Part shown: positions 5,656 to 17,227 of the stretch, in pieces
How positions within the stretch are numbered: the stretch's first letter is position 1
How the letters are laid out: the number at the start of each line of letters is the position of its first letter
NCBI GenBank assembly: GCA_020629795.1
Contig: JAHDCR010000001.1
Coordinates: 282,136-324,956 of the forward strand
DNA length: 42,821 bases
Source of the DNA: Candidatus Altimarinota bacterium
GTDB taxonomy: Bacteria > Patescibacteriota > Gracilibacteria > BD1-5 > UBA6164
Direction: 5' to 3'
The notes under the pieces: model-generated
What the model was told of the DNA's origin: nothing
Database searches by the model: none
Seen by the model: only the letters and a program-made list of their open reading frames with translations
Program-made: the position numbers and the translations under genes

Positions 5656-8046
5656 ATGTTTTTTAAATCCCATGGACTCTTAGGGCAAAATGCTCGTAAC
5701 CTCACATATATAAAATGAGGAAATTTTCTGCTTGCTAAAAAGTTAGCTGATTCGAAACTGACAACTAAAAAATTCCTCTCAAAACATAACGTTGCTGTTC
5801 CTGAAACCTTGCAGGTAATCAAAAAACATTCTGAAATACAGATAGAAAAAATAAAAAATTTCACTCCTCCTTTTGTAGTAAAACCAAATAACTGATACGG
5901 TTGAAAGGGGATTTTAATCTTTGATGAGATTGATGCGACCTGAAGTTTTATTACAAACTCATGAGAAAAATACTCTCCCGCAAGATTAGCTGAGCATTTC
6001 GTATATGTTTTAGATGGGTTTTATTCCCTTTCTGGAGGTCGTGATACTGTGATTATTGAAAAGAAAATAATACTTACAAAGGAGATAGAACTCTTAGGTA
6101 AATACGGACTTCCAGATATTAGAATTGTTGCGTATAACAAAGTTCCTGTAATGGCAATGATACGTATACCAACGGCAGAGTCAGATGGTAAGGCAAACAT
6201 CCATGGTGGTGCGTGTGCTGCAGGGATAGATATTGGATCAGGGAGATTGACCTATATTTCATCGAAATGAAAACTCGTAAAGTCAGTGCCGTGAATAGGA
6301 GATGTGAGAGGTATTATAGTGCCTGAATGGGATAAAATACTTTCGCTTGCTGTCTGAGTACAAATGGCTACTGGAATAAAATTTTTAGGTTGTGATGTTG
6401 TATTAGATGAAACAGATGGCCCACTGCTGCTAGAAATCAATGTACGACCAGGGCTGGAAATACAAAATGTTAACCTGGCACCTCTCAAAGCCAGGCTTGA
6501 TAAAGTAGAGTGAGTAGACGTATGAAGTATAGAAAAATGAGTACGTATAGGAAGGGATTTATTTTCATGAGATATCGAAGAAAAGATTACATCACTTTCA
6601 GGAAAGAAAATTTTGTGAGCAAAAGAATATCTCACCATATTTCACAATGATAAAACACTTAATTATATAGCTGATATTCGCGTGAGTAATAATGAAAGCT
6701 TTGTAAGTAAGGCTTTTGTTGAAGATATATTGCATATTACCATTGGAGAAAAAACGAGAGTAAAACTAGAATGTGAAATTTTAGGAATAGGAAAAACTAT
6801 AGCATTTAAAATCAGCGATCTAGAAGAGGATAAAAATTTGAGCCTTTGAAAAAATGTCTTGAAAGGCTTTCTAATAGACCCGTTTAAATATAAAAAATGA
6901 GAGAACCCAATTTTTCACTCTCTGAGTAATGAAAAGTGAAAGAATACTGCAATTACTAAAAGTAATGAGCAGCAGCTAATTTCCATAGATAAGGCTCTCA
7001 TGGATATTGATAAAAAACTGCTTATATTAAAATACTTAAATCCAATTAATGCTGAGGAGCAGAAGCAAATTTTTATAGAAAAAAAATGAGATTATGTCCC
7101 TAACTTTGAGTATAAGTCTTTTCCTCATGATTTGGATGCCTTGGAGCATGAACTAAAACTCATAGAAGTGCCAGATATACCAGTGGGTGAAATGTATGTA
7201 AGAAAGCAAGAGGAAATACATAATAAAATTAGATTTCTACGAGCTTTTGAAGAAAAAAATACCTGAGATATGACGCTCTATTCTAAAAAAGTTTTTGGGG
7301 ATATTGATGATGATAATTTTGAAATGAGTAAACAAAAAATCACTCATAGAGACAGCATCGTTCCAGAACAAGATTTCTTGAGTACTCAAGAAATCAAAGA
7401 CTACATGAAGAAGTTTAATCATATTTATGGAATCAAAGTTAAGGTGTTAGAAGCAGAATCTACGGCAAGATTTGTGATGAAGGGGGATACGCTTATGTTT
7501 AGAAAGTGAGCGATAGTATGAAAAAGAGAGATGCGGTCTATTATAGCCCATGAAATAGAGGGGCATTATCTCAGAAAAATAAATGGAAGAAAATCACAAT
7601 TCTCAATATTGTCTCGTGGAAGTGCTTGATATCTTGAAATAGATGAGGGTATTGCTATTTATAATCAAGATAGATTTATTACTCCCGTTGATAAAAAATA
7701 TTACTCTATATTTGAGAGGTATTATTTTGTCCAGTATGCATTAAAACATTCATATAAAAGACTCATAAAACACCTCGCTGAATTTTATGATGATGATTAT
7801 GAAAGAGTATTTGCATATATGTTGAGGCTCAAGAGATGATTTACTGACCCAAGTAAAGAGTGAGTTTTTATGAAAGATGTAGTATATGTGAATGGTCTGC
7901 AAAAAGTTCAAGATTATATAGAATCATGATGATCACTCGAGAGCCTGTATGTTTGAAAACTCAATATTGAAGATATACATTTACTCAAAGAAAATCCTTT
8001 CTTTGTAAAACATAAAAAAGACATAGTAATTCCATTTTCTGCTTAA
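5656..8046 (+). CDS. ATP-grasp (alpha-L-glutamate-ligase-like) / retropepsin-like / DUF1704 zinc-peptidase fusion
   Basis: This 796-residue protein appears to join three modules. Residues 1-300 resemble the RimK-related alpha-L-glutamate ligase-like ATP-grasp family: LGQNARNLTYI near the start, the nucleotide loop KPNNGYGGKG (76-85, two glycines from UGA), and the metal-binding LLLEINVRPGLEIQN (257-271). Residues about 305-415 resemble the retropepsin-like family of RimK operons, with KISDLEEDKNLSLGKNVL and KGFLIDPFKYK, but the catalytic DTGA is absent, so it is probably degenerate. Residues about 420-796 match DUF1704 (QEGLA-motif family, related to the tubulin detyrosinase MATCAP): HEIEGH at 632-637 gives the HExxxH zinc site and DEGIA at 663-667 replaces QEGLA. 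The predicted activity is adding an amino acid to a peptide end plus cleaving a C-terminal residue. The substrate is unknown. It sits between ftsX and pyrFE with short gaps. Confidence 0.8.
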
Positions 8047-8064
8047 TTCTTAAATATAATTATC

Positions 8065-9477
8065 ATGAATAGACTTATTATAGCGCTAGATAATCTCACT
8101 CCAGAACTTTTAGTTATGAAAATAAGAGAAGTATTAGAGAATAATTCTGATTTTAGAGATCAAATTGTTTTTAAAATTCATGATCTTGTATCTCTTATAG
8201 GATTTCAAGGTTTACATGATGTGCTTAAAGATATTGATTGTAAGTTAATGTTAGATCCAAAGTGGCACGATATTCCAAATACGTTAAAGAATTACTTAAA
8301 ACAGCTTCATGCATCGGGTTTATGATCAAAAGTTGAGTATATCACAATTCATACAAGTTGATGAACAGATATGCTTACAATGGCATTAGAAACTAAAGAT
8401 GAATTATTGCCACACGTGAAACTTTTATGAATCACAGCACTCACCTCTCTGGATGATGAAGATACTTGATATATTTTTGATGCGACAGCACAGCACTCAG
8501 TTTTAAAGCTTGCAAAAATAGCGCTAGATCTAGGGATAGAATGACTTGTATGTTCAACACATGAATCAAATATACTAAGATGAGTATTTGGAGAGCATTT
8601 TGAAATTGTAACTCCTTGAGTTCGGTTTGCGTGAGAGTCAGCATGAGATCAAAAACGTGTAATGACACCAAGTGATGCTATTATAAATGGATCAACACAT
8701 ATTGTAATGTGAAGATCTATACTTTGATCTAATAATATATCTCAATCAGTAAATCAGTTTTTCAGTGAAATACACAATCAAAAATATATAAATACTCACT
8801 GATTTAGATATGAAAAAATGTTATACACTGGTGATTGGAAAGATGTCCTATCTTATATTTGAGCATTTTACTTTCGACCAGAAGGTTGAAAATATGTGAG
8901 GTTTACCTCAAAAGTTCTATCTAATGCTTATATAAATATAGGAGCAATAGAGAGAAGCTATTGAGTTGTAGATAGGGCTTGTAGCGAACTTGCTAGTCAG
9001 ATACGTGCAAAAAACATTATTGCTGATGTAGTAGTAGGAGCTCAAATGTGAAGTGTGAGAATTTCATTATTTTTAGCTAAAAAATTAGGAATACAGCAGT
9101 CTATATACACAGAAAAAACAGAAAACAATAACAATAATATGGCCCTAAAACGTCACTCGATTGATCTCACATGAAAAAGAGTTATTATTTCTGAGGACAT
9201 TGTAAGTCGAGGAACAACAACTGCAAAAATGAGACAAGTACTAGAGGAGCTGTGAGCTACAGTGGTCGCTATAGCATGCGTATGAAATAGATATGAACAA
9301 AGCTCACAAGATTGAGTCCCAATTATTAGTTGTTTTGTGCCACCTAAGTTTGAGCTGTATTGGGATGACAATACTCCTGCAGATCAAAGAAAAGATTTTC
9401 CAAGACTCCCACAATGAGCAGTTGTTTCAGAAAAACCTAAAAACGACTGGTGAGAATTAGTGGAAAGTATGAGGTAA
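8065..9477 (+). CDS. pyrFE: Fused OMP decarboxylase / orotate phosphoribosyltransferase (PyrF-PyrE)
   Basis: The 470-residue protein would carry out the last two steps of de novo UMP synthesis: orotate + PRPP to OMP, then OMP to UMP and CO2. The N-terminal half is OMP decarboxylase with the catalytic DPKWHDIPNT motif (64-73) and, later, TPGVRF, the phosphate-binding end of the barrel. The C-terminal half is a type I phosphoribosyltransferase with the PRPP loop VIISEDIVSRGTTT (about 373-386). The order is PyrF then PyrE, the reverse of animal and plant UMP synthase. Many glycines are UGA. The ATG lies 18 bp after the ligase/peptidase gene, so it probably shares that transcript. No other pyrimidine de novo genes are visible apart from pyrG, so the organism may salvage orotate. 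Confidence 0.92.
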
Positions 9478-9565
9478 AAATCCTCAGATAGTGTCTTTCT
9501 ACATATATTTATACAACACCTTAGTACGTCTTTTGAAAAAATAGATTAAAAACTACAAAAATAAT

Positions 9566-9593
9566 TTGCAAAGCCTAATATTTTTTATATAAT
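9566..9593 (+). promoter_or_regulatory. Promoter of the tRNA-Asp/tRNA-Ala transcript
   Basis: TTGCAA (9566-9571), a 16-nt spacer and TATAAT (9588-9593) precede the tRNA-Asp gene by 44 bp. The -10 is followed by the C-rich discriminator TCCCTCG, like the tRNA-Glu and typA promoters in this window. Confidence 0.7.
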
Positions 9594-9637
9594 TCCCTCG
9601 CTTTGTTTGATACGAAGCTTTGTTTTTGGCTAGAAAT

Positions 9638-9715
9638 GGGGGCGTAGCTCAGTTGGTTTAGAGCGCCGCACTGTCACTGCGGAGGTCGCGGGTTCGAGCC
9701 CCGTCGCTCCCGCCA
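9638..9715 (+). tRNA. tRNA-Asp (anticodon GTC), CCA encoded
   Basis: The cloverleaf is complete: acceptor stem GGGGGCG with CGCTCCC, D-arm, anticodon loop CTGTCAC with GTC, T-arm with GGTTCGA, and an encoded CCA. It is the first gene after the promoter at 9566 and lies 23 bp before tRNA-Ala. Confidence 0.95.
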
Positions 9716-9738
9716 TTATAAGTCAAAAACATTAGCCT

Positions 9739-9815
9739 GGGGAATTAGCTCAGTTGGCTAGAGCGCTCGCCTTGCACGCGAGAGGTCAGGAGTTCGACTC
9801 TCCTATTCTCCACCA
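9739..9815 (+). tRNA. tRNA-Ala (anticodon TGC), CCA encoded
   Basis: Acceptor stem GGGGAAT pairs with ATTCTCC. The anticodon loop CTTGCAC carries TGC, the T-loop is AGTTCGACT, and CCA is encoded. It is probably co-transcribed with tRNA-Asp and possibly with the tuf region. Confidence 0.95.
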
Positions 9816-9826
9816 TTAAGTTTCCT

Positions 9827-9878
9827 CTATGATAGGTAATACCATAGAGAAAGTTACATCAAGGTTGTTAAACAACCG
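9827..9878 (+). promoter_or_regulatory. Two consecutive hairpins in the leader of the small-protein/tuf region
   Basis: Downstream of tRNA-Ala, CTCTATG pairs with CATAGAG across an 11-nt loop. Soon after, GGTTGT pairs with ACAACC around a short loop. Neither is followed by a T-run, so they are not classical terminators. They could be processing signals that free the tRNA or a leader structure for the following genes. Function is inferred only from structure. Confidence 0.45.
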
Positions 9879-9910
9879 AAGATGCATATTACTTTTAAAT
9901 ATACATTGTT

Positions 9911-10120
9911 ATGCCAGCAAATAAGAGACCAAGAAGATTAAACTATTCGGTAAATAAGAAATGACCAGTTACTGGAGGGAAAGTTTGAGGTGCTATTAAG
10001 CATTTTAAAAAACTACGAGAAAGAGTGGCATTTGAATGAGAAACTAAATGGTTAAGTAACGCTATGACAATCGTTTTAGCAAAACTTAAAAAATACGGAA
10101 TAAATCCTAACAAAATATAG
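9911..10120 (+). CDS. Small basic protein (69 aa), unrecognised
   Basis: The open frame from ATG 9911 to TAG contains four UGA glycines (KKGPV, KVGGA, FEGET) and is rich in Lys and Arg. The first residues are MPANKRPRRLNYSVNKKGPV. No membrane segment is present. I do not recognise the family. Its place between tRNA genes and tuf, its charge and its size suggest a nucleic-acid or ribosome-associated protein. It ends 3 bp before the next small gene, which supports both being translated from one message. Confidence 0.6.
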
Positions 10121-10123
10121 ATT

Positions 10124-10210
10124 ATGGCTAGATTAACAGGACACGCACACAGAAAACTAAGAAGAGCTAAGGCTCTGATTGAAAAAAAGGTGAAAAAAGC
10201 AAGAAGTTAA
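10124..10210 (+). CDS. Very small basic protein (28 aa), unrecognised
   Basis: ATG 10124 starts 3 bp after the stop of the preceding small gene. The product begins MARLTGHAHRKLRRAKALIE and ends in a Lys/Arg helix. About half of its residues are Lys, Arg or His. Size and charge resemble tiny ribosome-associated proteins, but there is no clear match to bTHX or the COX24-like family. A chance open frame cannot be excluded at this length; the tight spacing and position before tuf argue for a real gene. Confidence 0.45.
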   Translation: MARLTGHAHRKLRRAKALIEKKVKKARS

Positions 10211-10281
10211 TTTTGATTTTTTCATAAATTTTCGTACATTTAGTTACACAAATTTTTATTTAATTTTTTATTTTTACAATT

Positions 10282-11478
10282 ATGGCTTTCGACAGATCTA
10301 AGGCACATATGAACATCGGGACTATTGGTCACGTTGATCACGGAAAAACTACTACAACTGCAGGTATCTCTATTGTTCTTAACGCACTTCACGGTGGTGG
10401 TGAATGAGTAAGAGATTTTGCTTCTATTGATAACGCTCCAGAAGAAAGAGAAAGAGGTATTACTATCAACACTTCACACGTTGAGTATGAAACTGCTGAT
10501 AGACATTATGCTCACGTTGACTGTCCAGGACATGCCGATTATGTAAAAAACATGATTACAGGTGCTGCTCAAATGGATGCTGCGATTCTTATCGTTGCTG
10601 CTACTGACGGACCTATGGCTCAAACAAGAGAACATATTCTTCTTTCAAGACAAGTAGGTGTTCCATATATCGTTGTTTTCCTAAACAAGTGTGATATGGT
10701 TGACGATGAAGAAATGCTTGACCTTGTAGAAATGGAAATTAGAGATCTTCTCTCTAAATATGATTTCCCTGGTGATGATACTCCAGTAGTAAGAGGTTCT
10801 GGTCTTGTTGCACTAGAAAACCCTACTGATATGGATAAAGAATACGGTGCTAAATGTATTGTTGAACTTTTTGAAGAAATTGAAAAATTTGTTCCAGTTC
10901 CAGAAAGAGATTTAGATAAATCATTCCTAATGCCAGTTGAAGATGTTTTCTCAATTAAGGGGAGAGGTACTGTTGTTACTGGTAAAATTGAACAAGGTGT
11001 TATCAACGTTGGTGATGAAATTGAAGTTGTTGGTATTAGAGATACTACTAAAACTACATGTACTGGGGTTGAAATGTTCCACAAACAATTAGAAAGAGGT
11101 GAAGCTGGTGATAATGCTGGTCTTCTATTAAGAGGTATAGAAAGAGATGACGTTGAAAGAGGTCAAGTTCTTGCTAAGCCAGGATCAATTACTCCACATA
11201 CTAAATTTGAATGTGAAGTATATGTACTTTCTAAAGATGAAGGTGGTAGACATACTCCTTTCTTCAAAGGATATAAACCACAATTCTACTTCAGAACTAC
11301 TGATGTAACAGGTGATATCGAACTTCCTGCTGGAGTTGAAATGGTTATGCCTGGTGATAATATTCAAATGACAGTTGATCTACAAGTGCCTATTGCCATG
11401 ACTGAAGGTCTAAGATTTGCAATCAGAGAGGGTGGTAGAACAGTTGGTTCAGGTGTTGTTGCTAAAGTTATTTCATAG
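10282..11478 (+). CDS. tuf: Translation elongation factor EF-Tu
   Basis: EF-Tu delivers aminoacyl-tRNA to the ribosome as a GTP complex. The 398-residue protein has the usual length. Motifs are the P-loop GHVDHGKT (near residue 19), RGITI in switch [13 protein letters not shown] for guanine, then domains 2 and 3 ending [13 protein letters not shown]. The only in-frame UGA is codon 42 (10405-10407), in a variable loop before [15 protein letters not shown]. The rest of the gene uses ordinary glycine codons, unlike its neighbours. No Shine-Dalgarno sequence is seen before ATG. It ends with TAG. It is followed by rpsJ, the typical tuf-S10 order. Confidence 0.98.
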
Positions 11479-11535: not shown

Positions 11536-11561
11536 CTCTCTTAAGAGAAATCTTGAGAGAG
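11536..11561 (+). promoter_or_regulatory. 10-bp hairpin in the tuf-rpsJ spacer
   Basis: CTCTCTTAAG (11536-11545) pairs with CTTGAGAGAG (11552-11561) with one G-U and a 6-nt loop. It has no T-run after it. It may be an mRNA processing or stability element, or part of a leader controlling the S10 end. Confidence 0.45.
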
Positions 11562-11601
11562 CTTGCTAGGAAATATCATTACATTTTCTGCTTCACGAGT
11601 C

Positions 11602-11637
11602 ACTCCCACTGTTTGACACGGGAGTTTTATTTTTATT
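11602..11637 (+). terminator. Terminator-like hairpin between tuf and rpsJ
   Basis: ACTCCC (11602-11607) pairs with GGGAGT (11620-11625), followed by TTTTATTTTTATTT. It would end tuf transcription or attenuate rpsJ. The stem is short, so termination could be partial. Confidence 0.55.
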
Positions 11638-11650
11638 TATAACGTGATAC

Positions 11651-11971
11651 ATGGCTACAAAGAAAGATGGACAAAAAATCAGAATCTCTGTTAAGGCATT
11701 TGACCACAGACTTCTAGATGAAGCTGTAGGAAAAATAGTTTGAATAGCTAAAGACTCTGGTGCTGTAGTAGTAGGACCAATTCCTCTTCCTACTAAAATT
11801 GAAAAAATAACTGTAAATAGATCTACATTTGTTAATAAAGATGCAAGAGAACAGTTTGAAATTAGAAGACACAAAAGACTTGTTGAAATACAACAACCAA
11901 CAGCTAAAACTCTAGAATTACTTCAAGGAGTTTCTATTCCAGCTGGAGTTGGAGTTGAGATAAAAGCATAA
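11651..11971 (+). CDS. rpsJ: 30S ribosomal protein S10
   Basis: S10 is part of the 30S head and of transcription antitermination complexes as NusE. The 106-residue product shows [16 protein letters not shown] at the start, [17 protein letters not shown] in the middle and the conserved loop [12 protein letters not shown], then [13 protein letters not shown]. It is full length. One glycine (KIVGIAK) is encoded by UGA. The rest of the usual S10 operon (rplC, rplD and so on) does not follow; rpmB does, so the operon is broken up here. Confidence 0.97.
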
Positions 11972-11998
11972 AAAATTTAATTCCATTACTATAATACT

Positions 11999-12196
11999 AT
12001 GTCAAGAGTATGTGAAGTGACGGGAAAGAAAACATCAACTGGTAACAATAGAAGTAAATCTATGAGAGCTACCAAAAGAAAATTCTTCCCAAACCTGTTC
12101 TATAAAAATATAAAAGATCCTGTAACAGGATTAACATATAGAATCCGAGTATCTGCCAAAGGGCTTAAAACTCTTAAGAAAAAAGGAATTCTTTAA
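11999..12196 (+). CDS. rpmB: 50S ribosomal protein L28
   Basis: The 65-residue product has the L28 signature: CEVTGKKTSTGNNRSKSMRA, KRKFFPNL near the middle, and IRVSAKGLKTLKKKGI at the end. L28 sits on the 50S subunit near the E site. No UGA codons are used. It follows rpsJ by 27 bp and precedes tRNA-Leu. Confidence 0.96.
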   Translation: MSRVCEVTGKKTSTGNNRSKSMRATKRKFFPNLFYKNIKDPVTGLTYRIRVSAKGLKTLKKKGIL

Positions 12197-12214
12197 TTAG
12201 AATCCTTCTCTTCT

Positions 12215-12299
12215 GCCCAGATGGTGGAATTGGTAGACACGCAAGACTTAAAATCTTGTTCCTTCGGGAGTCCGGGTTCAATCCCCGGTCTGGGCACCA
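12215..12299 (+). tRNA. tRNA-Leu (anticodon TAA), CCA encoded
   Basis: Acceptor stem GCCCAGA pairs with TCTGGGC. It has the long variable arm of a class II tRNA (TTCCTTCGGGA region), anticodon TAA in the loop CTTAAAA, T-loop GGTTCAATC and encoded CCA. Confidence 0.95.
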
Positions 12300-12367
12300 A
12301 TCTAAATATAAACATAGTCCTGGTGCTATCAGAACTGAAAAAACATTTAATTTACAACAATATTGTC

Positions 12368-12607
12368 ATGTTAAAAATAAGACTATCAAGAGCCGGAAAG
12401 AAAAATATGCCTTTCTTTAGAATTGTTCTTACTGAGCATACAAGAGCTGCAAAACATGGATATAAAGAAGTACTATGATACTTTAATCCATTTACTAAAG
12501 AATTTAAAATTAAAGACCTAGATAAAGTAAAAACTTACGTATCACACGGTGTTCAATTCTCTCCTAGAGTTCAAAAACTTATGGAAACTAATAAAATTTC
12601 TCTTTAA
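12368..12607 (+). CDS. rpsP: 30S ribosomal protein S16
   Basis: S16 is a small 30S assembly protein. The 79-residue product starts MLKIRLSRAGKKNMPFFRIV, a clear S16 N-terminus, and continues with YKEVLGYFNPFTKEFKI, where the glycine is UGA, matching the family's LGxYNP motif. It precedes khpA, the order found in many bacteria. A terminator-like hairpin lies 8 bp after its stop. Confidence 0.96.
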
Positions 12608-12615
12608 TTTTTAAT

Positions 12616-12653
12616 TACTACTGACAAAAATATTTGAACAGTAGTATTTTTTT
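12616..12653 (+). terminator. Intrinsic terminator between rpsP and khpA
   Basis: TACTACTG (12616-12623) pairs with CAGTAGTA (12639-12646) and is followed by a run of seven T. The khpA start is only 22 bp further, so khpA expression requires readthrough or a promoter inside the hairpin region. Confidence 0.7.
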
Positions 12654-12675
12654 GTTATTATATAAATATGTTTTT

Positions 12676-12918
12676 ATGCAAGAAGTAGAATTTTTACAAT
12701 TTTTGGTAGAAAATATAGTTGTAAAGCCAGAAGATATTAATATAGAAAAAAGAGATGATGAGCTTGGGACACTTCTAACATTAGCAGTAAATCCAGAAGA
12801 TATGGGTATCATAATATGAAAAAAATGATCTACTGTGAATGCTCTCAGATCTATACTAAGATTACAATGAATGAAGATGTGAAAAAAAATTACACTGAAA
12901 GTATTAGAACAAGAATAG
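12676..12918 (+). CDS. khpA: KH-domain RNA-binding protein KhpA
   Basis: KhpA (YlqC) is a small single-KH protein that binds RNA, usually with KhpB, and affects ribosome maturation and cell size. The 80-residue product shows NIEKRDDELGTLLTLAVNPE followed by the core IIGKKGSTVNALRSILR. Both glycines of the GXXG RNA-binding loop are encoded by UGA (codons 48 and 51), strong support for the code reassignment. The position after rpsP is the conserved one. The start at 12676 fits the family length; an upstream ATG at 12634 would add an unlikely hydrophobic extension. Confidence 0.93.
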
Positions 12919-12937
12919 TTATAACTTAATATCCAAT

Positions 12938-13372
12938 ATGTTTTATTCAACCGTATTTGCAGCTGATACAAACTCAATTTTTGAGGCTCAAATGGACTTC
13001 TGAGAGTTTATACTCCTAGCTATCTCAATATTTGTTTTAGCAGCAGGATTATTATCAATTTTATTTATCTTATGGTGAGGATTACTCCTTATCCTTTCTG
13101 GTGGGAAAGATGATAAAATTAAACCAGCCATAAATACAATTCGTTTTGCTGTAATTTGAGTTGTAGTTACAGTTTTAACTATATTTCTCTTTCCAGTATT
13201 TGGACGACTATTAGGTCTCGATGTGGAAAGATATGCTAAACCTCAAAGAATTTTTGAAAAAATTGAAGAAATAGGAGATAAAATCTTTGGATGACAATCT
13301 ACTTCAACTCAATATAACACCTCAGATCCTCAATCTCTTGATGATTTTCCTGCTGATTTCTCTGATTTATAA
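12938..13372 (+). CDS. Two-helix membrane protein, T4SS-pilin-like
   Basis: The 144-residue protein has two membrane helices (about 27-50 and 65-90) separated by a loop GGLLLILSGGKDDKIKPAIN. This helix-GG-SGGK-helix pattern resembles the small pilin-like proteins (T4SS_pilin, VirB2/TrbC type) that are common and often multicopy in CPR genomes. The N-terminal stretch could be a short signal sequence. The C-terminal tail is polar with Ser/Thr/Asp. No secretion genes lie beside it. It follows khpA by 19 bp and is closed by a strong terminator. Family assignment is by pattern, so moderately sure. Confidence 0.6.
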
Positions 13373-13373
13373 T

Positions 13374-13402
13374 AAAAAACTCTCATATTGAGAGTTTTTT
13401 AT
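13374..13402 (+). terminator. Bidirectional intrinsic terminator
   Basis: AAAAAACTCTCA pairs with TGAGAGTTTTTT around a 3-nt loop. It closes the pilin-like gene on the plus strand and, read on the other strand, the coiled-coil gene. Confidence 0.85.
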
Positions 13403-13818
13403 TATCTGATATCTTTGTTAAATATAAAATATATCCATTTTTCATATATGCTCATTGTTGAGAGGAGACTTTGTTCATCAAGGAGGCTTTGAGGGACATA
13501 TTCAGCTTCTTGCGAGCTGGTTTCTTGAGTATATTTTTTGTATTGTTCTTCTTCGATAAGTGATATAACTTCTTCTCATTTATTTTTCATTCATCTTTCT
13601 GCTTTTAATATTTTATTTTTATATGCTTTTGTATTTTTATACTCTAGTGTCAGTTTCGTATTTTCTATTTTATCTAGTATTTCTTGATTATTGAGGGTAA
13701 TTTCATCAATATATTGCATTACTTTATACTCTGTATACTTATAGCTGAGTACTAAATAAACCATATATACAAGTATAATTATTAATAAAACAAAGATGTA
13801 TCGTGCCAGGTGCTTCAT
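13402..13818 (-). CDS. Membrane-anchored coiled-coil protein, unrecognised
   Basis: The 138-residue product starts MKHLARYIFVLLIIILVYMV, a short basic N-terminus and one membrane helix (about 7-28). A polar helical region with heptad-like Leu/Ile spacing (about 35-100) follows, then a tail. Two UGA glycines lie at the GMKNKGEE segment. The layout resembles small bitopic division proteins of the FtsB/DivIC/FtsL type, but no diagnostic motif is visible, so this is only a suggestion. It converges on the pilin-like gene, sharing its terminator, and is divergent from the FecR gene. Confidence 0.7.
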
Positions 13819-13879: not shown

Positions 13880-15172
13880 ATGAAAAAATTAGGAAATAAA
13901 TTTATAATAGGAGTTATTTTAATTATTACACTTATTGTAGTATCTCAAGTCTTCATTGCTTACTGACAAAGTAATAGGGATACCAATTCGTACCTCAGTT
14001 TGCTATCATGAAATGCGACACTCAATGATATACGTTTGATGCCGGAGGATAAAAATATCTTAGCTGCATGAGATCGGGTTAGAGTTATAGGAGAGTCTTC
14101 ACTCGCTGTTATTGAGTGGTGAGATGGTAGTATGACAAGGCTAGGTTGAAATACTACGATAACAGTAAATCAAAATGAAATATCAAGAGACTTTACAGAT
14201 ATTAATATTTCATTTGAATTAATAGCATGAAAGACTTGGTCCAATATAGTTTCTTTTATATGAAGTGACTCGTCTTTTACTCAAACATTTGATGGTATTG
14301 AGGCCTGAGTGAGAGGAACGGTCTTTGATGTTGATCTCGATAAACAGTTTATACACACTACAGATCATAGTGTTCAAATAACAACACCATCCTGAGATTC
14401 ATTTTTACTTCCTGAGTGAAGTGTTTTGAATTTAGAATCTTTTTCACTTATAGAGTTATCTGAATATATCAGAGAATTACAAGACTCAGCTTGGATAGAA
14501 ATCAATAATAAGCTGGATAGTGAATATATTAACGAGCTCAAATCATGATTAGAATCATCGATTAACTCATCTAACCCATTTTTATTCTTACTGAAATTTA
14601 TTTCACCAAAGTATGCAATTCTCTACGTCCTGGATACATATGAAAAACAAGAAGATATTGAAATTTATATCGCAACTATGTCAGATAGTAAGAAACAAAA
14701 GGTATATAACGATGTTCTATCTGTATATCAAGATATGAACTTTATCTCCCCAAGTGATGATGCATATGCGACTAAAATGAGATATAAGAGAGCCTTAGTT
14801 TTATTAGATGTTAATGATGAAAACACTCAAAGACTGGTTGCTTCTTCGGCTTATGACCTACAAGATATGTTAGATAGTGGTAACTCTGCAAAGATTTGAA
14901 ATACTCTTTCTTTTATAGAAAATAATATTGATAAGCTTGATACTCAAAACTTAGATATAGTAAAAAATGGATTAGACTATATTCCTGAAGACTTACGAAG
15001 CGAGTTTGCAGAAAGCTTTCAATCTCTTTGAGATATCCTTAATATTGATTTTTCAGAGTTTAAAAATATTAATTCAGACTCAATAGGAGATGTTTTAGAC
15101 TCTACGGATGCTGCGATTCAAAATTTTCTCGATGAAAATGTATGAGGATTACTTGAACAATTTTCAAACTAA
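13880..15172 (+). CDS. FecR-domain membrane protein
   Basis: The 430-residue protein has one N-terminal membrane helix (about 8-28) and an extracytoplasmic FecR-type domain (about 55-190). Its cues are DRVRVIGESSLAVIEWGDGS, RLGGNTTITV and GVRGTVFDVDLDKQFI, then HSVQITTPSGDSFLLPEGSV. FecR domains bind or sense extracellular cues and pass signals to partner proteins. The remaining 240 residues are helical and acidic with no recognised domain. Many glycines are UGA. It ends 3 bp before the CHASE2-cyclase start, so the two are co-translated; pairing of FecR and CHASE2 proteins is known in other bacteria. The sensor role is inferred from this pairing. Confidence 0.85.
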
Positions 15173-15175
15173 TCG

Positions 15176-17227
15176 ATGAGTAAACTATTGAAAAATAATA
15201 ACGTAATCACGATAATAATTTCATGTATTATCGTTTTTATACTTTTATGATGTAGTAGTTTTTTTAGAGTATTAAATAAAACAATACAAAATAAGTATTA
15301 TGAAGTAAAAAATAATATTGTAGGCCTTACGGCAAGTCCTCATATAATGATAGTTGAACTAGACGACAAGAGTTTTGAATCAATATGAAAGTTCCCATTT
15401 TCAAGAGATATTTATGCAACATTTTTAAAAAATCTAGAACCATATGATGTAGCTGCAATAGCGTTCGATATACTATTTTTGGATCCATCTATACCGGAAA
15501 ATGATAAAATATTCTCTCAGGCGGTATCTAGTACTCCTAACGTAATATTAGGTTCTTCAATAAATAATAAATGATCAATCCAAACTCCATTTGAAGGTTT
15601 CAAGCAAGGGAGTTATACTACTTGATACTTACCTCCTAATGTTGAGTCATCAAATAATACCGTGTATTCATTTACCCCTCAATTAACAGATATTTCTGGA
15701 GAGATATATGAACATTTTACTATAGAAATTCTACGAGCATTTTATAAATACTATTGATATCCTGATCTTAATGGGCCAGGAATCTATACAGATACACAAT
15801 ATATATTTTCAGATACAATTTCTTATCCACTCGCTTCCAAGTGATCAAAAGAGCTACTGATAAACTTTATACCACCAGAAAATTTTACAAGAATTTCTTT
15901 TTCTGATGTTTATGATAGTTCTATGTTACAAACCCTATCTAAAAGTATCTCATTTAGAGATGCGATTATACTCATTGGTCCAGCTGCTGATGGTTTAAAA
16001 GATGAGTTTTTTACCCCTAATTGAGTTGAATATGGAGTAAACATTCATGCAAATATTTTGAATACACTTTTGCAAGAAGAGTACACTATGTATTTTGATA
16101 GAAAATTAGAATGGGTATTAATATTCTTACTTGTAATTCTCTCAGTTTATGCAAATCTGTCTCCTTCTAATAAAGTTTTACTTATCAGTAATTTTTTGAT
16201 AGTTAGTGTTTTTTGGTTTATTTTTCCCTTGAGCATACTATTAGGTACCAATCTTATAATCAATTTTCCTTCAGAGATTATTTTTTCTTTGTTACTCGCA
16301 TTTACTTCTGCGAATATTGTAAAGTATCTTATTGAGGATACTAATAAGAAGAAGCTCAATAAAGCACTTAGTGAGTATGTGTGAGAGAGTATTGCTGATG
16401 AAATTTTACTAGAACATGGAAAGGTAAATCTTGATTGACAAGAAAAAAACTTAGTATGTCTTTTTTCAGATATTGAGGGCTTTACGACTATGAGTGAAAA
16501 ACTTAGTCCTAGTGAACTGGTATCATTCCTTCGTGAATATCTCTCGAGCATGACAGGTATTATAATGGATAAACGGTGACATGTTGATAAATTTGAGTGA
16601 GATGCTGTAATGGCATTATGGGGAGCTTTTACTGAGCATTCTAATGCAGATTATGTATCAGCATGTAATGCAGCTCTTGAACAAAGAGAAGCACTCAATG
16701 CTTTAAATAAAAAATGGTCTAAAAAGCTTGGTTCAAGTGTAAAAATAAGAATGTGAATCCATGGTTGAAAGGCAATTATCTGAAATATATGAGCTATAGG
16801 TCGAAAGATGGAATTTACTGCTTTAGGAGATAATATAAATCTAGCCTCGCGATTGGAGTCTGTTAATAAATACTATGGAACATATATTTGTGTAAGTGAA
16901 ATTGTATATATAGCAACAAAAGGTTTTTTTAGCTTTAGATATCTTGATGAAATCAAGGTAAAATGAAAGGATATACCAGTTAAAATCTATGAGCTTATTT
17001 GAAGACTAGATGCTCACTGAGAAAAACAAAAACAAATCTATAATGCATTTGCGTGAGCTATGTTGCACTACAAAGATCGTAGTTTCAATGACGCGAAGGA
17101 TATATTTGAGAGACTTGCCCAAGACTGAGATGCACCCTCAGAGACTTATACCCAAAGATGTGAATATTATATTCAAAATCCACCTGGAAAAGATTGGGAC
17201 TGAATCTGGAGAATGATGGAAAAGTAA
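15176..17227 (+). CDS. CHASE2-domain class III adenylate cyclase
   Basis: Makes cAMP from ATP in response to an external signal. The 683-residue protein has an N-terminal membrane helix (about 11-30), an extracytoplasmic CHASE2 domain (about 40-300; VELDDKSFESIGKFPFSRD, AFDILFLDPS, VILGSS), three membrane helices (about 310-390) and a cyclase catalytic domain (about 420-610). Catalytic residues are visible: metal-binding D432 in FSDIEGFT and D476 in KFEGDAVMALWG, purine-binding K472 with T548 in the second position, and transition-state N555/R559 in NLASRLE. The Lys/Thr pair fits class IIIb. The glycine before D476 is UGA. The C-terminal 75 residues look TPR-like. It follows the FecR gene by 3 bp and converges with ung, the two stops being 1 bp apart. 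Confidence 0.92.

Follow-up and report, generated by a model that had tools for sequence, protein, structure and literature searches.

A FecR and CHASE2-cyclase gene pair in a reduced, recoded Gracilibacteria genome: a probable sensor for CRP-less cyclic-nucleotide-binding receptors, one of them tied to PilT

The placement of a FecR gene beside a CHASE2 cyclase gene is already known from other organisms. In Campylobacterota, a CHASE2 adenylate cyclase has a FecR outer-membrane protein as its neighbour, and in most cases a phosphodiesterase and a TPR protein belong to the same cluster (PMC9239204). CHASE2 cyclases of Sinorhizobium meliloti sense a host plant protein via the outer-membrane protein NsrA (PMC13001267). 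Near cyaD1 lies the FecR-domain gene smc02177, a target of Clr; infection control depends on it, whereas the signal is perceived without it (PMC5498481). Burkholderia carries a FecR-LysM and CHASE2 histidine kinase operon (PMC5192318). For the lineage considered here, type IV pili are expressed in Gracilibacteria according to a paper in whose covered text the words "cyclic" and "adenylate" do not occur (PMC11452946), and neither "cyclic" nor "adenylate cyclase" occurs in the covered text of a Vampirococcus paper (PMC8080830). The covered part of a 2025 ISME J paper on Saccharibacteria pili names the regulation of extrusion and retraction among open questions (PMC12206443). Among the open-licence papers listed, none by its title and the start of its abstract describes a system like the one below in the Gracilibacteria/Patescibacteria lineage. 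What appears to be new, as far as that search reached, is that this lineage has a putative cAMP pathway without CRP, one receptor of which is tied to PilT.

The window, by which we mean the whole stretch of 42,821 nucleotides that was analysed, lies within contig C13 of a 1.108-Mb genome (22 contigs, 95% complete) of a bacterium that is probably host-dependent. Its genes can be read through only if TGA is taken as glycine, as in code 25, the code that NCBI gives for SR1 and Gracilibacteria. In a table 11 translation TGA interrupts both frames of the pair, with 7 TGA codons inside the cyclase domain alone, while in table 25 both frames are open, and it is in the latter that the spacing of 3 bp given in the preliminary description holds, measured from the FecR stop to the cyclase ATG with the FecR gene upstream. 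The features of the pair and of the region upstream are as follows.

10282..11478: EF-Tu gene, upstream of the pair
12215..12299: tRNA-Leu gene, overlapping the start of the mechanical rpsP frame
12221..12607: rpsP (S16), mechanical frame
13880..15172, + strand: FecR-domain protein, 430 aa (table 25 frame, Pfam, hydropathy)
14090..14353, + strand: FecR domain PF04773, residues 71-158 (Pfam E 1.1e-5)
15176..17227, + strand: CHASE2 receptor fused to a class III nucleotide cyclase, 683 aa (Pfam, alignment)
15230..16144, + strand: CHASE2 domain, predicted extracytoplasmic sensor, residues 19-323 (Pfam E 1.3e-36)
16106..16333, + strand: membrane segments linking CHASE2 to the cyclase, residues 311-386 (hydropathy)
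16448..16990, + strand: catalytic domain (Guanylate_cyc), residues 425-605 (Pfam E 3.2e-22, alignment, solved-structure matches)

The pair resembles the Campylobacterota cluster in that a CHASE2-cyclase gene adjoins a FecR-domain gene (PMC9239204); a scan of five neighbouring proteins of the window gave no phosphodiesterase or TPR match of the kind found in that cluster. It likewise recalls the CyaD1/CyaD2/CyaK-Clr system of S. meliloti with SMc02177, in which a FecR-domain gene lies near one of the CHASE2 cyclases (PMC5498481, PMC13001267), and the Burkholderia operon, in which a FecR-domain protein adjoins a CHASE2 sensor protein, although the output there is a histidine kinase with a response regulator and here is a cyclase (PMC5192318).

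The Pfam match that defines the upstream protein is modest (PF04773, 26.2 bits with the cut-off at 24), and a six-frame genome search with the same model gave, among the matches listed, the genome's other FecR gene and not this one. The protein has a single N-terminal membrane segment at residues 8-26 by hydropathy, and its long C-terminal region is predicted to be mostly helical in a low-confidence model of the chain folded alone (pLDDT 36.8). Anti-sigma regulators of the FecIRA kind combine a cytoplasmic N-terminal anti-sigma region with an adjoining ECF sigma gene. We rejected such a FecI-type role for the window protein, in which FecR is the sole domain found and the membrane segment begins near residue 8; no sigma match was found by Pfam among the five neighbouring proteins scanned.

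The downstream protein matches the CHASE2 receptor-cyclase layout, with one N-terminal membrane segment, the CHASE2 domain, further segments and then the cyclase (by Pfam and hydropathy, the sidedness being our reading). From the membrane segments of both proteins we infer that the FecR and CHASE2 parts lie outside the cell and the cyclase inside. Six residues of the cyclase are invariant in an alignment of 21 proteins, and we take D432 and D476 to be the metal aspartates, K472 and T548 the purine pair, and N555 and R559 the transition-state residues of a class IIIb enzyme. Earlier statements that all catalytic residues are kept, and that a Lys/Thr purine pair is present, are thereby borne out. 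As judged from its sequence, the window cyclase has an intact class III (IIIb) active site, and cAMP production is predicted. The preliminary description further linked the enzyme to a group with bicarbonate-stimulated members. Its Lys/Thr pair is indeed there, but this is the general, adenine-selecting purine pair of class IIIb and does not imply bicarbonate sensing. The closest solved structures to the catalytic domain are CyaB of Pseudomonas aeruginosa (3r5g, E 3.7e-30) and then the bicarbonate-stimulated CyaC (1wc1, E 3e-25), both of which share the domain and the Lys/Thr pair, the sensor here being CHASE2 with a FecR partner. With the pair common to class IIIb and CyaB ranking ahead of CyaC, we rejected a bicarbonate-sensor reading as non-specific.

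Conservation of the pair was followed in a class sample of 192 genomes, in which the family of the window genome has 21 members, 19 of them with a cyclase. One CHASE2-cyclase locus per genome was inspected in these 19, the window genome included (in four of them CHASE2 is matched more than once), and at every one the cyclase gene is directly preceded by a FecR gene on its own strand. A gap of 1-22 bp separates the two at 18 of the 19 loci. The exception is L081, where the frames overlap and the mechanical start given to the cyclase probably lies too far upstream. The other 18 family cyclases are 41-64% identical to that of the window, and adjacency kept at 19/19 loci despite this divergence suggests, at the level of sequence, that the pairing exceeds chance. 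In other classes of the phylum a FecR gene was found within 300 bp of the cyclase at 9 of the 20 loci inspected. The observation of the pair in the preliminary description is thus confirmed, and its interpretation is supported in part. We consider it likely that the FecR and CHASE2-cyclase genes together provide the extracytoplasmic sensing part of a cAMP pathway that works without CRP.

The role of FecR within such a unit is putative, since smc02177 is dispensable for perception in S. meliloti, and it is conceivable, if not what we would expect, that FecR is an envelope partner or output (adhesin-like or wall-associated) that is co-expressed with the cyclase while CHASE2 alone senses. Apart from the placement of smc02177 as a Clr target for infection control (PMC5498481), this would be in keeping with a weak NCBIfam likeness of the window FecR protein to Lsa33, a model for a surface adhesin of Leptospira (E 6.9e-7, 28.7 bits against a cut-off of 420), and with 16 loci of standard-code class relatives (L065-L080, selected because coordinates showed a CNB, or cyclic-nucleotide-binding, gene near the cyclase), 14 of which have the CNB gene adjoining the cyclase with no FecR match on the fetched stretch, some stretches ending near the cyclase. 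The unbroken upstream position of FecR in the family and its recurrence near cyclases in other classes argue against it.

The genome encodes three CNB proteins, of 139, 132, and 284 aa, in a search carried to E values of up to 1, so candidate cAMP effectors are present, and the lack of any effector that would have counted against the preliminary description is not observed. They are not of the CRP/FNR kind to which the preliminary description had pointed, but consist of two stand-alone CNB proteins and one PilT-linked CNB-GAF protein. The 139-aa protein, (a), adjoins ATP-synthase genes and has the cassette FGEIALLNEEPRSATVVA; the 132-aa protein, (b), begins 1 bp behind infB (L064:7596-7994, contig C13) and has the cassette GEIAFFGEPPTRNATVIA; the 284-aa CNB-GAF protein, (c), begins 8 bp behind a pilT gene (TIGR01420, E 2.6e-125). 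A CNB domain of the cAMP type has a phosphate-binding cassette with a Glu and an Arg. Both residues occur in (a) and (b), which we predict to be cAMP-type CNB domains, and (c) has the Glu with Lys in place of the Arg. The GAF label of (c) comes from 6 of 25 aligned relatives that match PF01590 (best E 1e-6), and no domain was found in the C-terminal part of the genome's own protein. A CRP-type helix-turn-helix (HTH) is absent by Pfam from all three proteins, the identical kind of scan detecting HTH_Crp_2 in 3/3 CRP-like proteins of relatives, and a classical CRP/FNR effector was not found in this genome. In this the system differs from Campylobacterota, which have CRP-like proteins (PMC9239204), and from S. 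meliloti, where Clr is a CRP-family regulator and where the organism and its envelope differ as well (PMC5498481, PMC13001267). Among the matches listed the genome has three of the PilT family, as well as six to T2SSF (PilC-type), which are not specific to pili because that family matches 13 of 14 control genomes. The adjacency of (b) to infB may point to a cyclic-nucleotide link to translation initiation.

Cyclase and CNB genes occur together across the class. Both were matched in 77 of the 192 genomes, a cyclase only in 3, a CNB only in 31, and neither in 81, which puts CNB proteins in 77/80 genomes with a cyclase and 31/112 without (Fisher p 4e-24, a value that ignores shared ancestry). Against a pathway reading, three cyclase-positive genomes (G002, G013, and G124) have no CNB match. 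For the CNB-only genomes, 28 CNB loci were inspected in 23 of the 31, the other 8 being without coordinates among the matches listed. The Glu/Arg pair is absent at 21 of the 28, where all the proteins measure 213-277 aa, and a CRP-type HTH was detected in 3/3 of those scanned. The pair is retained at 7 of the 28, in five cyclase-negative genomes (G074, G142, G187, G191, and G115), which also counts against a pathway reading. In G115, which has no detected cyclase, the Glu/Arg CNB domain lies within a 2549-aa open frame (L191, contig C14). Family members G097 and G178 have no cyclase, CHASE2, or CNB matches and retain PilT-family genes; those of G097 are more distant matches only. In G178 one of them is orthologous to the CNB-linked pilT, at 56% identity, and no CNB gene was found downstream of it, which favours a pathway reading. 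Phylum-wide, a cyclase was matched in 39/379 genomes. Of the 27 genomes outside the class with a cyclase, six were set aside for matches weaker than 1e-7; among the other 21, CNB matches occur in 4, in 3 of them above cut-off, which again counts against a pathway reading. A cyclase-CNB pairing throughout the phylum was therefore rejected, and 77/80 within the class against 4/21 outside it makes the coupling look like a class feature.

The FecR/CHASE2-cyclase sensor of this reduced and recoded genome thus probably feeds CNB receptors that lack CRP features, one of them tied to PilT. A surface or host cue would act on the FecR and CHASE2 ectodomains, the cytoplasmic cyclase domain would convert ATP to cAMP, and the CNB proteins would relay the signal through binding of partners rather than of DNA. 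The likeliest output would be type IV pilus retraction through PilT, and a second output may lie near translation, through the infB-linked CNB protein. We put forward only tentatively the full scheme for this ultrasmall, recoded lineage, in which CRP-less cAMP signalling would run from the FecR/CHASE2 sensor through CNB-GAF to PilT and through another CNB protein to an infB-linked process. For a cell attached to its host, surface sensing that drives pilus retraction would make sense, and the pair and the CNB proteins together suggest a way in which a cell of this kind could detect its host and hold on to it. If PilT is gated by cAMP via CNB-GAF, the surface sensor would be linked to pilus retraction directly, with no transcriptional step in between. 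A 1.1-Mb genome would then offer a small candidate circuit of surface input, messenger, receptors, and motor, with a bearing on how episymbiotic Patescibacteria sense hosts and regulate type IV pili.

Loci of relatives were fetched, and the adjacency counts for CNB, PilT, and FecR refer to these fetched loci rather than to the whole 192-genome sample. The infB-linked CNB protein occurs 19 times, always beside infB and with Glu and Arg kept in 19/19. CNB proteins nearest type (a) have both residues in 47 of 48 cases, the exception (L174) coming from a cyclase-negative genome. All 28 proteins of the CNB-GAF type adjoin PilT (26 assigned to CNB-GAF by best hit, together with L158 and L161), and 12 of them (L157, L158, L160, and nine of L161-L170) were chosen with frame length in view. 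A chance linkage to PilT was set aside on this count of 28/28, with two exceptions, G152 and G024, read afterwards. In G152 the PilT-linked CNB-GAF gene is split into two overlapping frames (L227:2646-3499, contig C16), possibly through a frameshift or an assembly error. G024 has a cyclase and a pilT orthologue, yet no CNB-GAF gene was found behind pilT, and both genomes count against a pathway reading. One locus of G048 (L079) brings all the partners together in 7.1 kb; they share a strand, and one gene of opposite orientation lies among them:

5924-7912: cyclase
7925-8341: CNB protein
8430-10895: FecR protein
11544-11993: CNB protein
11986-13044: PilT

Lys takes the place of Arg in 19/19 PilT-linked CNB proteins compared from the order of the window genome, itself included, and their cAMP binding is for that reason the least certain among the CNB proteins. 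The CNB-GAF protein of the order may have lost cyclic-nucleotide control and become a constitutive PilT accessory, with cAMP acting via the two stand-alone CNB proteins only. Beyond the Lys residue, the PilT-linked CNB-GAF genes of G074 and G142, which have no cyclase match, would fit such a loss, but we think it rather unlikely, as the Glu is kept in 28/28 PilT-linked proteins and the Arg in 7 of 9 from standard-code relatives, and the pilT orthologue of cyclase-negative G178 stands without a CNB gene found behind it. The stand-alone CNB protein has as its nearest solved relatives by sequence the regulatory domains of cGMP-dependent and, behind these, of cAMP-dependent kinases, as might be expected if the cyclase made cGMP, or if it were inactive and another signal were read by the CNB proteins; this is improbable given the adenine-selecting Lys/Thr pair, the invariant catalytic residues, and the fact that CyaB and CyaC, both adenylate cyclases, are the best matches.

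Elsewhere in the window genome, another CHASE2-cyclase, of 703 aa, lies beside a divergently oriented FecR protein of 1453 aa (L061:10497-14858, contig C13) that has a lipoprotein-like start, an Ig-like domain in atrophied form, and a weak likeness to adhesins and to FISUMP. That the FecR-cyclase adjacency is passive, an old synteny by translation genes with no functional link, is very doubtful: EF-Tu lies upstream, and an EF-Tu-kind match of 394-399 aa (found by similarity to IF-2) in 15 of 18 relatives' loci makes the block look vertically inherited, but the same partners recur in this divergent second pair and in other classes of the phylum, and FecR with a CHASE2 cyclase is also found in Campylobacterota and Sinorhizobium (PMC9239204, PMC5498481). 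On the other strand, about 0.6-2 kb from the second FecR gene, are genes for a DUF5667 protein and for a member of the sigma-70 family (L061:15428-16949, C13; Sigma70_r2 E 1.8e-9), a setting in which this second FecR protein may have an anti-sigma link, and the FecR protein of the relative G048 likewise carries DUF5667. A third cyclase homologue, soluble, of class III and without CHASE2 (370 aa; L062:9136-10248, contig C1), has a purine pair that reads by eye as Lys/Asp rather than Lys/Thr.

Upstream of the window pair, the first residues of the rpsP frame are read-through of tRNA-Leu, so the real rpsP start is probably further downstream. Nearer the pair, at 12938-13372 and 13402-13818 of the window, come two proteins whose matches both fall below cut-off: a small membrane protein with a weak T4SS pilin likeness (E 5.1e-5) and, on the minus strand, a protein resembling DivIC (E 0.003).
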